From Prolixibacteraceae bacterium (GTDB lineage Bacteria; Bacteroidota; Bacteroidia; Bacteroidales; Prolixibacteraceae): a stretch of DNA of 33,559 bases. A program made the translations under genes and the position numbers. Below, in pieces: positions 9,978 through 15,905 of this stretch (its first letter is position 1; every line of letters starts with the position of its first letter). Location of the stretch: the NCBI GenBank assembly GCA_018648265.1, contig JABGRN010000065.1, positions 1 through 33,559 on the forward strand. Reading direction: 5' to 3'. Under the pieces are notes generated by a model that worked only from the letters and a program-made list of their open reading frames with translations, did not search any database and was not told the origin of the DNA.

Positions 9978-10838
9978 TCAATTCACACGATTTCGGTAAT
10001 TCCGCGGAGACAGTCCCATTTTCTTTTTAAAGTCTTTTGTAAAATAATAGGGATCGGAATAACCCAAATGAAAAGAAACTTCCTTCACTTTCATTTGGGT
10101 ATAATCTAATAATTCACATGCTTTTACAATTTTTAAATGCGAAAAATAACTGATTGGCGAATAGTTGGTTTCTTTTTTGAACAACGTTGTAAAATATGTC
10201 GGCGAATATCCAACCTCGTCTGCAATTTGGTTCAGCGAAAGTTTTCTGTTAAGGTTTTTCCCCAGATAATTAATTGCCCTTCGTATAAGCGGGTTTGATT
10301 CATCGGCAATATCATCGCTGGTTTTATTGGCATAAATAAAAGTTGCCAAAAGATGCCCAAAACAAAAATTCACATATTCCAGATTTTCATCATGAAACCC
10401 TTTTGAAAGATTATTGAAAATTTCATCGAATAACATTTCGCGATTGGCAACCATATTATTAACCGATGGGATCAGATTTCGTACTACGGAAAACTCTTTC
10501 CCCAGTTGTTTTGCTTTTTTCCCATCAAACCAGGCAATTAAAAAATGTGTATTTACATCGGGAACTGAATAGAATTTAAACTCGTCGCCTTTGGAGATGA
10601 TAAAAAACTGATCGTTTGAAACTGGAACCTGTTCATCTAAAATAAGTGCAATCCCGTTTCCTTTTGTACAATAAACAAGTAGATAACTTTCGAGTTTTTT
10701 GTTGGTTCCCCAGATAGTTCCCTGTTCTACTTCAATTTCACCAGTTTCAGTTAAAAATAAGTCTTTTGTAAAAGAATTTTTCTTTTGTCCATCTATTAAA
10801 GGAACGGGGATTTTAAAGTATCGGGTTTCTGTTATCAT
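9978..10838 (-). CDS. AraC family transcriptional regulator
   Basis: The 286-residue protein has an N-terminal cupin-like sensor half (about residues 10-150) and a C-terminal double helix-turn-helix AraC domain (about 185-286). The DNA-binding half shows LSLNQIADEVGYSPTYFTTL (first HTH) and VSFHLGYSDPYYFTKDFKK followed by GLSPRNYR, the classic end of the family. Such regulators usually sense a small molecule, often a sugar. I chose ATG 10838; ATG 10868 is ten codons upstream. It precedes the GntP gene and is divergent from the corrinoid methyl-transfer cluster, so it may regulate either or both. Confidence 0.9.
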   Translation of the reverse strand: MITETRYFKIPVPLIDGQKKNSFTKDLFLTETGEIEVEQGTIWGTNKKLESYLLVYCTKGNGIALILDEQVPVSNDQFFIISKGDEFKFYSVPDVNTHFLIAWFDGKKAKQLGKEFSVVRNLIPSVNNMVANREMLFDEIFNNLSKGFHDENLEYVNFCFGHLLATFIYANKTSDDIADESNPLIRRAINYLGKNLNRKLSLNQIADEVGYSPTYFTTLFKKETNYSPISYFSHLKIVKACELLDYTQMKVKEVSFHLGYSDPYYFTKDFKKKMGLSPRNYRNRVN

Positions 10839-10883
10839 ACTATTTCTTGTATAAAATTCAAATTGCAAAATTAAATAAAGTAA

Positions 10884-11091: not shown

Positions 11092-11760
11092 ATGAGCGAA
11101 TTGTTGTTAAAAATTGCCGATTGTGTTGAATTTGGAAAGATAAACAAGGCATCCCCGTACCCGCCTCAAATGAAAGGACAGGACGGGGCAGATGAACTAA
11201 CCAGGCAGGCATTGGATGAAGGTGTAAATCCACAGGAAATCCTTACAGGAGGATTAATGGTAGGAATGCAAAAAATAGGTGTTAAGTTCCGCGAAAATAA
11301 AGTTTTTGTTCCCCAGGTCTTGATGTCGGCGAAAGCTATGAGTACTGCAATGCTCCACCTTAAACCATTTTTTCTTTCGGGTGAAGTAAAACAAAAAGGA
11401 ACATTCATTATTGGAACAGTTGAAGGCGATTTACACGATATTGGTAAAAACCTGGTATCGATGATGGTTGAAGGAAACGGCTGGAAAGTTGTTGACCTAG
11501 GAACCGATGTAAAAGCCGATCAATTTGTTGCCGCGTTAAAAGAAAACCAAAATGCTTTTATTGGCTTGTCAGCTTTGTTAACAACAACAATGGTTAACAT
11601 GGAAAAAATCACCAAATCGATTAAAGATGCTGTTCCCGGGGCAATTGTTGCGATTGGTGGCGCACCGGTAACTGACGATTTCAGAAAGAAAGTTGGTGCC
11701 GATGCTTATGCACCCGACCCACAAGGATTAGTTGAGTATTTGAATTCGCAGTTAGATTAA
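11092..11760 (+). CDS. Corrinoid (cobalamin-binding) methyl-carrier protein, MtaC/MtbC/MttC-like
   Basis: A 222-residue carrier that holds a corrinoid whose cobalt accepts a methyl group from one methyltransferase and passes it to another. Residues about 1-95 are the helical cap domain; residues about 103-220 are the Rossmann-like B12 domain. The base-off/His-on motif is complete: DLHDIG (Asp113, His115, Gly118), then SAL (160-162) and GG (189-190). Length and layout match free-standing carriers such as MtaC, MtbC, MttC or MtgC. It is the first gene of the methyl-transfer cluster. No cognate substrate methyltransferase (MtaB, MttB, MtgB type) and no reductive activator (RamA/RACo type) is visible in the window. 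Confidence 0.92.
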   Translation: MSELLLKIADCVEFGKINKASPYPPQMKGQDGADELTRQALDEGVNPQEILTGGLMVGMQKIGVKFRENKVFVPQVLMSAKAMSTAMLHLKPFFLSGEVKQKGTFIIGTVEGDLHDIGKNLVSMMVEGNGWKVVDLGTDVKADQFVAALKENQNAFIGLSALLTTTMVNMEKITKSIKDAVPGAIVAIGGAPVTDDFRKKVGADAYAPDPQGLVEYLNSQLD

Positions 11761-12050: not shown

Positions 12051-13670
12051 ATGAAAGGACTTGAATTAATAAAAAAAGCATTTGCGCTAGAACCTGTTAA
12101 AAGGGTTCCCTGGGTTCCATTTGTTGGTGTGCACGGTGGGTTTTTAACAGGTATTGACGCAGAAAAATATCTGAAATCTTCAGAAGAAGTTGTTAAAGGT
12201 ATTAGCAAAGCCATCGAAGAATATAACCCTGATGGTGTTCCGGTGGTTTTCGATTTACAAATTGAAGCTGAAATCCTGGGATGCGAATTAAAATGGGCAC
12301 CCCACAATCCGCCGGCAGTAGTAACCCACCCGCTTGCCGATGGTAAACAATTAAAAGATTTACATATTCCAACCGAATTCGACGGACGAATACCGGAAGT
12401 TATTAAAGCCACAAAACTACTCAGGAAAAAATATCCTGACATTGCTTTATACGGATTAATAACCGGTCCATTTACATTGGCCCTCCATTTAATGGGAACC
12501 GACATTTTTGTGAAACTTTTTGAAGATCCTGAAGCTGTAAATGAAGTGATGGATTTTTGCACAAAGGTGGGAAAAAAAATGTCGGAATATTTAATGGAAG
12601 CAGGTTGCGATATAATCGCAGTAGTTGATCCAATGACAAGCCAGATTGATCCACAAACTTTTGAAACTTTTGTTACGCCTTTTGTTTCAAAACTATTCTC
12701 TTTTGTGCGCGAAAAAGGAAAATTAAGTTCGTTTTTTGTTTGCGGACATGCACAACAAAATATCGAAACTATGTGCAATTGCAAACCTGACAATGTCTCA
12801 ATCGATGAAAATATTCCACTTGATTTTGTAAAAGAAATTGCCTTAAGTAAAGGGATAAGTTTTGGCGGGAATATGAAATTAACGGTGGTTTTATTAATGG
12901 GCAACGAAGACGATTGCCGTGAAAATGCCATTGATTGCCTTGATATGGGAGGGAAAAAAGGATTTATACTTGCTCCCGGATGCGACCTTCCACGAGATAC
13001 GCCACCGGAAAATATTAAAGCAGTTACCAAATTGGTACACGACCCATACCAGCAAGAAGTGATCCGTGCCATGGATAAAAAGGAGACTACTCTGGAAATT
13101 CTAAACATGAACGATTACGGGCAGGCCGATAAAGTTATTGTCGATGTAATTACTCTCGATTCAGAATCGTGTGCCCCTTGCCAGTACATGGTTGAAGCAG
13201 TTAAAAGGGTGACGCCTCATTTTGAAGGAGTGGTTGAGTGGCGCGAACATGCCATAAAAAAAATGGAAGCAGTCACTTTTATGTCGTCGTTAATGGTAAA
13301 AAATATCCCTACTATTTGCATCGATGGTAAAATAGAATTTGTATCTCAAATTCCACCAAAAGGTGATTTAATTGCAGCCATTCAAAAACGTATTAACAAA
13401 AAACTAAAACTTAAAATAAAATCGAAACGAAGCGAAATACTTATTCTTGGCGAAGATAAAGATGAAACCAGCAAATTAAACAGTAAAATTCATCGTGCAA
13501 TTACCGAATTAGGAAAAGATGTTGAAGTAAAAATGATTTCGGATAAAAAGCAGATAGCAAACTATGGAGTTTCGCGGGGACCAGCCGTTGTTGCTGTAAA
13601 TTACAAACTAAAATCTGAAGGAACAGAACCCTCTTTGGAGGTTGTAAAAGAGTGGATAAAAGAGTTGTAA
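12051..13670 (+). CDS. URO-D family corrinoid methyltransferase fused to two thioredoxin-like domains
   Basis: The 539-residue protein has three parts. Residues 1 to about 345 are a uroporphyrinogen decarboxylase-fold methyltransferase (MtaA/MtbA type), with the distal zinc cysteine in APGCDLPRDTPPENI (Cys311) and a proximal site FFVCGH (Cys231, His233). Residues about 360-450 are a thioredoxin-like domain with the redox motif CAPC (374-377) and a NIPT cis-proline loop (418-421). Residues about 460-539 resemble a thioredoxin_3 domain (ILGEDKDETSK, then GVSRGPAVV) whose usual cysteines are gone. The URO-D part should move a methyl group between a corrinoid carrier and a thiol or other acceptor; the role of the added modules is unknown. 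It is not expected to decarboxylate uroporphyrinogen. Confidence 0.88.
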   Translation: MKGLELIKKAFALEPVKRVPWVPFVGVHGGFLTGIDAEKYLKSSEEVVKGISKAIEEYNPDGVPVVFDLQIEAEILGCELKWAPHNPPAVVTHPLADGKQLKDLHIPTEFDGRIPEVIKATKLLRKKYPDIALYGLITGPFTLALHLMGTDIFVKLFEDPEAVNEVMDFCTKVGKKMSEYLMEAGCDIIAVVDPMTSQIDPQTFETFVTPFVSKLFSFVREKGKLSSFFVCGHAQQNIETMCNCKPDNVSIDENIPLDFVKEIALSKGISFGGNMKLTVVLLMGNEDDCRENAIDCLDMGGKKGFILAPGCDLPRDTPPENIKAVTKLVHDPYQQEVIRAMDKKETTLEILNMNDYGQADKVIVDVITLDSESCAPCQYMVEAVKRVTPHFEGVVEWREHAIKKMEAVTFMSSLMVKNIPTICIDGKIEFVSQIPPKGDLIAAIQKRINKKLKLKIKSKRSEILILGEDKDETSKLNSKIHRAITELGKDVEVKMISDKKQIANYGVSRGPAVVAVNYKLKSEGTEPSLEVVKEWIKEL

Positions 13671-13753: not shown

Positions 13754-13966
13754 CTCCGACATTTACGGGCTGTGTGAAAATGGGACTATCCTTTGCCGTT
13801 GGATTTATCCAACGGTTATTGAATAAAGAAAGAGAAATGGACTTTAGTCCTGAATATAAGACAATTGGACTAAAGTCCAGCAGTTTGTGTCATTGCAAAA
13901 TCCGTCCCATAAATGGGACGGTAAAGGATAAAAAGACTGTTTTCACACAGTCTGTTTATGTCGGAG
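13754..13966. mobile_element. MITE-like element with 27-bp terminal inverted repeats and internal hairpins
   Basis: The 27-base ends at 13754-13780 and 13940-13966 are inverted copies matching at 23 of 27 positions (shared cores ctccgacat and ctgtgtgaaaa). Between them lie three perfect hairpins: 8-bp ccgttgga/tccaacgg (13796-13815), 13-bp tggactttagtcc/ggactaaagtcca (13838-13879) and 9-bp ccgtcccat/atgggacgg (13902-13921). No coding capacity is convincing. It fills most of the 343-base gap between the URO-D fusion and the homocysteine methyltransferase. No clear target-site duplication was seen. A non-autonomous element mobilised in trans, or a RAYT-associated REP composite, fits best. Confidence 0.7.
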
Positions 13967-15005: not shown

Positions 15006-15905
15006 ATGCAAAAAATTCCATTCCATATTATTTCAGGTTTCCTCGGAAGTGGCAAAACCACATTTCTAAAAAGAATTATTGATAAATATTCTACCGAAAC
15101 TAAAATTGGTATTATTCAAAATGAGTTTGCCCCTGCAAATATTGATGGTGCCGAACTAAAACAATCAGGAAAAGATTTTAATCTTCTCGAAATAAATAAT
15201 GGTTCTGTGTTTTGCGTTTGTTTGCTAGGTGATTTTGTGAATTCGCTGGAAAAATTTGTTAACCAGCATCACCCTGAAATTATAATAATTGAAGCTTCCG
15301 GGCTTTCTGATACAACTTCAATTTCTGAAATAATTTCGGCAAGTACCCTGGCTGAAAAAATATATTTAGCATCGAACTGGTGCATTGTTGACGCGCAAAA
15401 TTTTGCAAAGGTTGGACTGATGAAACAGAGGGTTTCTCATCAGATACGAATGGCAGACATTGTGGTAATTAATAAAACAGATTTAATTGAAACCGGAATA
15501 AAAAAAATTCGCGAAGAGATAAAAAAAGCAAATCCGTTTACCGAAATCAGAGAAACCACATACTGTAATATTGATTTTGAATTGGGGGATTCAGCGATTA
15601 AAAAGTTCTTTTTCGATGAAGTAAAAACTTTAAGTAGTCCCAACGTTAACTCAATGGTTATTAAAAGCGGGCGAAAATTATCGCGCAAATCATTGGAACT
15701 ATTTTTATTCAAATGGTCTCCCAAAGCGTTCCGAATAAAAGGTTTTGTGAATTTGAAAGAAGATAAGACAGTAGCAATTCAATGTACCTTCGACTCGGTT
15801 GAAATTATTGAAATGGAGAATAATTTTCATCCAACAGAGTTGGTGGCGATTAGTCACCGGTTTACCCTTCGCGAATGGAATAAGTCGCTAAAGGAGTTTA
15901 GTTAA
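15006..15905 (+). CDS. CobW/COG0523-type G3E GTPase, putative metal or cofactor chaperone
   Basis: A 299-residue G3E-family P-loop GTPase. The Walker A motif is GFLGSGKTT (11-19), an EASGL segment (96-100) serves the Walker B/switch region and NKTD (156-159) is the guanine-specificity motif. The usual CxCC metal motif appears here as FCVCLLGDF, with only Cys70 and Cys72. A C-terminal CobW_C-like beta domain follows from about residue 215. COG0523 proteins deliver metals such as zinc or assist B12 enzymes. As last gene of the methyl-transfer cluster it probably loads or maintures the zinc sites or corrinoid carrier encoded upstream; this is inferred from position only. Confidence 0.88.
   Translation: MQKIPFHIISGFLGSGKTTFLKRIIDKYSTETKIGIIQNEFAPANIDGAELKQSGKDFNLLEINNGSVFCVCLLGDFVNSLEKFVNQHHPEIIIIEASGLSDTTSISEIISASTLAEKIYLASNWCIVDAQNFAKVGLMKQRVSHQIRMADIVVINKTDLIETGIKKIREEIKKANPFTEIRETTYCNIDFELGDSAIKKFFFDEVKTLSSPNVNSMVIKSGRKLSRKSLELFLFKWSPKAFRIKGFVNLKEDKTVAIQCTFDSVEIIEMENNFHPTELVAISHRFTLREWNKSLKEFS

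Follow-up and report, generated by a model that had tools for sequence, protein, structure and literature searches.

A URO-D/thioredoxin fusion protein of Bacteroidota, its subfamily with TGA-bearing relatives in a second phylum, and a candidate role in corrinoid-dependent methyl transfer

Methylamine use relies on a set of three proteins, MtmB, MtmC and MtbA, and selenoprotein families in organometallic biochemistry have reportedly been the subject of a paper. Kountz and Balskus (PMC10418091) ascribe to S-methyltransferases of the URO-D superfamily a His-Cys-Cys zinc site, suggest that MtaA-like proteins demethylate methyl-S or methyl-Se compounds, and describe one such protein assayed in the reverse direction. 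A further member of the superfamily, the methyltransferase CdmB, works without zinc, according to the available part of its description (PMC13222342). Neither for a URO-D/thioredoxin fusion nor for a URO-D selenoprotein was a paper named among the matches listed in a literature search that covered few subscription papers; PF01208, UroD and uroporphyrinogen find no mention in the accessible text of a 2026 selenoproteome review (PMC13188914), and none of the terms queried was found in the text on deep-Sep (PMC12013277).

Here we describe a three-module protein in which a URO-D barrel is joined to two thioredoxins, and which, judged by its residues and phylogenetic placement, is a member of a distinct URO-D subfamily, newly recognised here.

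Architecture and recurrence of the fusion

The window, by which we mean the whole stretch of 33,559 nucleotides analysed, from a Prolixibacteraceae genome, carries on its forward strand a single 539-residue ORF without internal stop (12051-13670). Its URO-D barrel (residues 5-331; 12063-13043) matches the PF01208 superfamily model at 211.1 bits (cut-off 23.9, E 2.9e-62) and resembles the MtaA structure 4ay7 in a Foldseek search (TM 0.90 by target). Thioredoxin 1 (residues 362-454; 13134-13412) has the active site CAPC at residues 374-377 (13170-13181) and NIPT at residues 418-421; thioredoxin 2 (residues 462-538; 13434-13664) bears at residues 467-475 (13449-13475) the degenerate site GEDKDETSK and, in the window protein, no CxxC. 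The whole protein scores 51 bits against PF13192 (Thioredoxin_3; cut-off 24.8); scanned alone, the thioredoxin 2 fragment (450-539) exceeds that cut-off at 37.8 bits and the thioredoxin 1 fragment (350-456) falls just below it at 24.2 bits. The best NCBIfam models lie below their cut-offs for every module: the MtaA/CmuA group for the barrel, HUIPC_Trx (NF047660; E 1.4e-10, 41 bits, cut-off 105) for thioredoxin 1 alone, and MTH895/ArsE (TIGR00412; 42 bits, cut-off 62) for the thioredoxin 2 fragment.

An AlphaFold2 model built from 25 sequences (mean pLDDT 83.7, pTM 0.63; pLDDT below 50 at residues 344-351 and 456-459) predicts the barrel and, for both 362-454 and 462-538, the order beta-alpha-beta-alpha-beta-beta-alpha; a second model, of the C-terminal pair alone (mean pLDDT 79.5, pTM 0.56), agrees on two thioredoxin folds. 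Foldseek matches this pair to the tandem thioredoxin proteins PDI, ERp44 and P. furiosus PDO, in which the mutual orientation of the two domains finds no counterpart, since the rmsd over both is 13-17. Pfam, AlphaFold2 and Foldseek thus agree on the three modules that a first-pass annotation, made from the letters of the window, had proposed, including the CxxC of thioredoxin 1 and a thioredoxin fold within residues 460-539. At gathering thresholds no RNA elements were found in the window.

That annotation had named a sequencing frameshift as a condition that would undo the fusion. A scan of genome contigs retrieved 27 loci, 24 of which were aligned with the window protein; the three omitted were L031, which has a distant URO-D, and two loci truncated at contig ends (L027, L029). 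In this first alignment 24 of 25 proteins, window included, have both modules and 538-540 residues, the double-module proteins being 62-83% identical to the window protein; the single exception (L026) has 451 residues and thioredoxin 1 only. Addition of eight proteins from the order and one from the phylum gave a Bacteroidota set of 34, with both thioredoxins in 26, window included, and thioredoxin 1 only in eight (L026, L071, L079-L084). Because both modules recur in 26 of 34 proteins, a frameshift artefact or chance fusion is ruled out. The CxxC of thioredoxin 1 is present in 46 of 46 fusions from both phyla considered here. The longest fusion ORF (L083:7841-9957, reverse strand) carries an extra 122 residues whose coding sequence runs over the end of the corrinoid gene in a different frame, and the true start of this ORF is probably internal.

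The barrel-thioredoxin unit was found at E 1e-20 in nine of 198 genomes spread evenly over the order, the window's own included. A search of the phylum with the thioredoxin pair gave matches in 76 of 395 genomes, among which the window's own (1e-106) and one other (G345, 1e-36) alone look by E-value like true homologues; the remainder, at 7e-10 and weaker, match mostly thioredoxin 2 alone.

Thioredoxin 2 is a decayed module. Aligned with an MTH895/ArsE-like thioredoxin of the same genome (contig C138; neighbouring genes include an SBF-type transporter and an LMWPc-type phosphatase/reductase), it places GEDKDETSK over the active site CVKC. The nucleophilic Cys column is without Cys in 26 of 26 double-module proteins; the other Cys of the original CxxC survives in 18 but not in the remaining eight, which include the window protein, and the cis-Pro position retains Pro in 25. 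The window protein thus shows a late stage in the decay of a once catalytic thioredoxin. The earlier description of the module as cysteine-less is accurate for the window and does not extend to the family, and action as a monothiol is ruled out for the window protein, which has no Cys there. Absence of thioredoxin 2 from eight of the 34 Bacteroidota proteins and from all 12 Bacillota-type fusions read shows that it is dispensable for the core function. The part of docking surface for the corrinoid protein that the first-pass annotation gave it is conjectural.

Subfamily residues and TGA codons at position 311

We compared 56 subfamily members (34 Bacteroidota and 22 Bacillota-type, the latter comprising 11 Cys fusions, four Cys copies without a fused module and seven TGA forms) with a reference set of 17 further URO-Ds taken from these loci and genomes. 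Where alignment to 4ay7 places the His-x-Cys of MtaA, the window protein has Phe229-Val-Cys231 (12735-12743): position 229 is Phe in 54 members and Leu in two, against His in 17 of 17 other URO-Ds, and Cys231 is present in 56 of 56. His28 (12132-12134), a candidate replacement for the lost metal ligand, occurs in 55 members (Gln in L119) and in none of the 17 others, four of which are gapped there in a loosely aligned N-terminal region. Asp252-Glu253 (12804-12809) is likewise conserved (Asp in 55, Glu in 56 of 56). Position 311 (12981-12983, within APGCD) is Cys in 49 members and encoded by TGA, as for selenocysteine, in seven. H233 of the CGH motif, considered as a substitute metal ligand, is ruled out by its presence in only 24 of 56.

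In a midpoint-rooted FastTree tree of 67 sequences, the subfamily (50 members used) forms a clade with support 0.95. Within it the Bacillota-type fusions group with one unfused copy (0.999) and the Bacteroidota with one another (0.74); the double-module proteins do not form a clade of their own (support 0.23), and the TGA forms are split over two or more parts of the tree, L121 lying with the fusions and the others in the unfused group.

These data bear on the reading of an ordinary MtaA-type zinc methyltransferase whose fused thioredoxin is purely protective or structural. The fold and both Cys positions do match MtaA, and oxidation of zinc thiolates would be a plausible threat; yet the His ligand is replaced in 56 of 56 members, TGA stands at codon 311 in seven, and every curated cut-off is missed (TIGR01463, MtaA/CmuA, 166.1 bits against 235.4; NF004889, 172.4 against 244; the MtaA model, 160.8 against 400; the MtbA model, 134.4 against 600). 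Moreover, zinc is dispensable to some URO-D methyltransferases, as the available text on CdmB (PMC13222342) indicates. Since both the cut-offs and the His ligand fail, we do not file the fusion as MtaA or MtbA; identity as plain MtaA is ruled out, and we regard this reading, even in its protective form, as very unlikely.

The TGA forms come from the second phylum, that of the genome of L031, a Peptococcaceae MAG, to which we refer as Bacillota or Bacillota-type. Of 398 such genomes drawn, 75 gave some match at 1e-10, mostly to the barrel only; barrel and thioredoxin were spanned in one reading in 13, one of them through TGA. We read 20 regions from 18 genomes, picked for strength or for separate modules and so not a random sample. 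Seven have an in-frame TGA at codon 311 (L109, L110, L112, L114, L115, L121, L127); neither TAA nor TAG occurs there among subfamily members. The frame continues for 21-139 codons past the TGA, and its translation scores 78-156 against Cys forms, compared with at most 50 for shuffles (200 each, run against a quarter of the Cys forms). Among five TGA forms, all 10 pairs differ most at third codon positions.

All seven TGA-form genomes yield a tRNA-Sec match of 72-81 bits, as do six Cys-form genomes of the same phylum at 64.8-72.5 bits. In the other five Cys-form genomes and all 15 Bacteroidota genomes searched, nothing exceeded 50.9 bits; seven of these 20 pass the Rfam gathering score of 47 (47.3-50.9 bits; the window's genome reaches 45.4), and we take these matches as cross-matches to other tRNAs because all 14 control genomes match too. 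SECIS-like hairpins after the TGA are weak: among the six of seven that were folded, z was -4.56 and -1.97 in two and -0.18 to -0.95 in four. A TGA at the Cys column, continued coding and a tRNA-Sec thus coincide in seven of seven relatives, the window protein itself having Cys, and TGA at 311 in these relatives appears to be read as selenocysteine.

Exchange for selenocysteine in several relatives makes Cys311 probably the reactive residue; it may bind a metal, or act in redox chemistry or as a nucleophile, and its selenocysteine forms hint that this subfamily branch uses thiol redox chemistry. In six of the seven TGA forms the thioredoxin is a separate neighbouring gene (L121 is fused), and a thioredoxin gene adjoins seven of the ten unfused copies. 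In L109, L110 and L112 a further thioredoxin-like gene lies upstream of the TGA-form URO-D, with TGA at its first active-site position so that it reads UTPC or UMPC; that of L110 reaches 32 bits with NF047660, whose cut-off is 105.

Gene company and candidate roles

In the window, a divergent AraC-type regulator gene (9978-10868, reverse strand), which adjoins the corrinoid gene in many close relatives, is followed on the forward strand by genes for a corrinoid protein (11092-11760; B12-binding_2 plus B12-binding domains), the fusion, a homocysteine S-methyltransferase domain protein (PF02574; 14014-14895) and a CobW-family GTPase (15006-15905), these assignments resting on Pfam and NCBIfam; beyond them, frames resembling succinate dehydrogenase genes were noted by eye. 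An inverted-repeat element of about 213 bases (13754-13966) between the fusion and homocysteine methyltransferase genes has seven more copies in the genome at 88-95% identity and is accordingly interpreted as a MITE-like mobile element.

Neighbourhoods were scored by tblastn and blastp at Bacteroidota loci with enough flank; L005, L029 and L082 have no upstream flank for scoring the corrinoid gene. Of 33 loci that could be scored, 31 have that gene in the company of the fusion, with opposite orientation in L022 and L078; in the remaining two (L021, L030) it is found elsewhere in the genome, beside a homocysteine methyltransferase gene, so that the suggested co-occurrence of fusion and carrier holds. 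A CobW gene accompanies 30 of the 32 fusions that could be scored for it, L017 and L077 being the exceptions, and 19 of 33 assessable loci have a homocysteine methyltransferase gene. Loci of more distant members also encode RACo (PF14574), a MetH-activation-like protein (PF02965) and a second URO-D. This second URO-D neighbours genes for L-rhamnose transport and mutarotation (RhaT/RhaM) in L023, RhaT in L026 and a galactokinase-like gene in L080 and L081.

The window's genome has one fusion, one free corrinoid protein (that of the window; apart from the MetH frame nothing else matches B12-binding_2), one RACo match, on contig C43 and hence away from the one URO-D and one corrinoid protein of the window cluster, ten URO-D matches, and one stand-alone MetH-activation-like protein. 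The homocysteine and corrinoid modules that a split methionine synthase would have both lie in the window, but the genome has in addition a 1227-residue frame with the corrinoid and activation domains of MetH; with a full-size MetH frame present, the cluster is unlikely to be a MetH replacement.

Genes for the corrinoid protein, the fusion and the homocysteine methyltransferase form one group in the window and in the majority of its close relatives, and MtaA-like methyl-S or methyl-Se demethylases have been proposed (Kountz and Balskus, PMC10418091). Both speak for a rival account in which the fusion would methylate the corrinoid from methyl-S or methyl-Se compounds and its thioredoxin would keep the substrate or the site reduced. 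Against this, 14 of 33 assessable fusion loci have no homocysteine enzyme nearby (in two of these genomes, L021 and L030, its gene is found at another site, next to that of the corrinoid protein), other and variable methyltransferases occupy the donor place, and Mlps are said in PMC10418091 to keep His-Cys-Cys almost throughout, which the subfamily does not. We consider this account unlikely, if the strongest of the competitors.

In the second phylum we scored company by tblastn at 1e-6 in the 20 regions, some of them short. The corrinoid protein was found in 11, CobW-like genes in ten, RACo in seven and MtrH in four; no corrinoid gene was found in nine regions, some short (L111, L116-L119, L123, L126-L128). 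MtmB-like genes occur in four (L113, L120, L124, L125), Pfam confirming those of L120 and L124. These two monomethylamine methyltransferase genes beside the fusion (L120:777-2168, L124:4967-6388) are open in the standard code with no in-frame TAG and so apparently lack pyrrolysine. The combination of MtmB, corrinoid protein and subfamily protein recalls MtmB/MtmC/MtbA and would give the subfamily protein an acceptor-side place.

A GcvH-like lipoyl protein occurs in five of the 20 regions (L109, L110, L112, L123, L126), adjoining the fusion in L123 and L126 and accompanied in L110 and L112 by lipoyl synthase and a pyridine nucleotide-disulfide oxidoreductase. In the latter two stretches (L110:6083-13299, L112:5730-11458) the GcvH-like and lipoyl genes flank the TGA-form URO-D and its thioredoxin, and DGC-domain proteins and MtrH are also encoded, with a lipoate ligase in L110.

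Such company, with selenocysteine at 311, conserved Cys231 and neighbouring thioredoxins, some UxPC, would suit a thiol or selenol redox enzyme that acts on an alkylated or oxidised corrinoid protein in reductive removal or repair, rather than a usual methyltransferase, with thioredoxin as electron source, joined in some relatives by a lipoyl H-protein and an enzyme resembling dihydrolipoamide dehydrogenase. Thiol potentials are, however, too high for cob(I)alamin formation, several of these loci already contain RACo and MetH-activation-like proteins, and the best structural match of the barrel is a methyltransferase; we judge a redox enzyme of this kind unlikely.

From the observed architecture, residue patterns, gene company and comparative TGA recoding we infer a corrinoid-side role, a thiol acceptor, a metal and reduction by thioredoxin. 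The protein is a URO-D superfamily member that probably works like a corrinoid methyltransferase. Our leading explanation, held tentatively and at somewhat under even chances, is that the fusion serves a methyl-transfer module as its common enzyme on the side of methyl-corrinoid, with a Cys231/Cys-Sec311 site that depends on its own thioredoxin. Other methyltransferases, varying by genome, would load methyl onto the corrinoid protein, and the fusion would handle methyl-Co(III), probably with a thiol acceptor and independently of the substrate; donor-side company indeed changes between genomes (other URO-Ds, MtmB-like) while the fusion is constant. The barrel would keep the MtaA thiol positions Cys231 and Cys311 and, having lost His, perhaps use His28 instead, CobW supplying a metal that the three residues may hold. 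The thioredoxin, fused or next door, would reduce the Cys231-Cys/Sec311 pair or an acceptor disulfide and so let the site cycle; a part in holding the thiols of the metal site in reduced form would agree with the conservation of both thiol positions and with the selenocysteine relatives. Thioredoxin 2, an extra MTH895/ArsE-type module with catalysis lost, may serve structure or contacts. Against this explanation stand the nine second-phylum regions in which no corrinoid gene was found and the weakness of the SECIS-like hairpins; CobW could serve the corrinoid pathway rather than the fusion, and a second acceptor-side enzyme may seem redundant, since the homocysteine methyltransferase could take the methyl of the same corrinoid.

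As for donors, five of the nine other URO-Ds of the window's genome, on contigs C56 (L129), C103 (L132), C118 (L070), C133 (L130) and C155 (L131; gene C155a), have HxCG and a His at the Cys311 position. These H-C-H URO-Ds neighbour an MFS transporter (C56), a fucosidase and hexokinase (C103), a rhamnosidase-like gene (C118), GH2, an SSF symporter and SusD (C133), and sulfatases (C155), which suggests sugar O-demethylases feeding the single corrinoid protein; such genomes are rich in glycan genes, so this context is weak evidence. Near a GH88 gene of the same genome (L133:33-3482, contig C127) lies a 1150-residue type II CRISPR nuclease frame matching RuvC_III, HNH_4 and the Cas9 bridge-helix.

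If the H-C-H URO-Ds cut methyl from O-methylated sugars (for example methyl-rhamnose, methyl-fucose, methyl-galactose), a shared methyl-transfer hub in Bacteroidota may receive the methyl of plant and algal sugars without oxygen, as a counterpart of oxidative sugar demethylation. The joint proposition, an undescribed thiol/selenol branch of corrinoid enzymes in which Cys231-Cys/Sec311 handles the methyl with a dedicated thioredoxin, coupled to a sugar-methyl outlet in glycan-degrading Bacteroidota, is speculative and rather doubtful as a whole. The URO-D corrinoid methyltransferases would thereby gain a branch that is linked to thioredoxin and able to take selenocysteine, with residue 311 singled out as one to test.

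Comparison with known systems

Thioredoxin 2 shares fold and sequence with MTH895/ArsE-type proteins (TIGR00412, PF13192), and the paralogue in its own genome aligns over most of its length; it differs in having lost the nucleophilic Cys in 26 of 26 proteins and in scoring 42 bits, below the cut-off of 62. Thioredoxin 1 differs from the HUIPC motif thioredoxin-like (seleno)protein of NF047660 in reading CAPC, without selenocysteine.

With the type 1 mlp MtaA-like proteins, as described in PMC10418091, the fusion shares its nature as a bacterial MtaA homologue with a corrinoid protein. Those clusters occur in anaerobes and are linked there to S or Se methyl groups; all their proteins except several Mlps1 reportedly retain His-Cys-Cys, and each cluster is said to have two or more Mlps and a Ram protein, whereas the window cluster has one such protein and its site reads Phe-Cys-Cys (Phe or Leu in 56 of 56 members).

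A further likeness is to MtaA and MtbA, soluble coenzyme M methyltransferases (4ay7; TIGR01463, NF004889, NF040654, NF041608), with which the fusion shares the URO-D barrel (26% identity to 4ay7 over 344 columns), both zinc-motif Cys positions and a corrinoid partner. It departs from them in its scores (134-172 bits against cut-offs of 235-600), in having Phe for the His ligand, in the gain of His28, and in carrying two thioredoxin modules.
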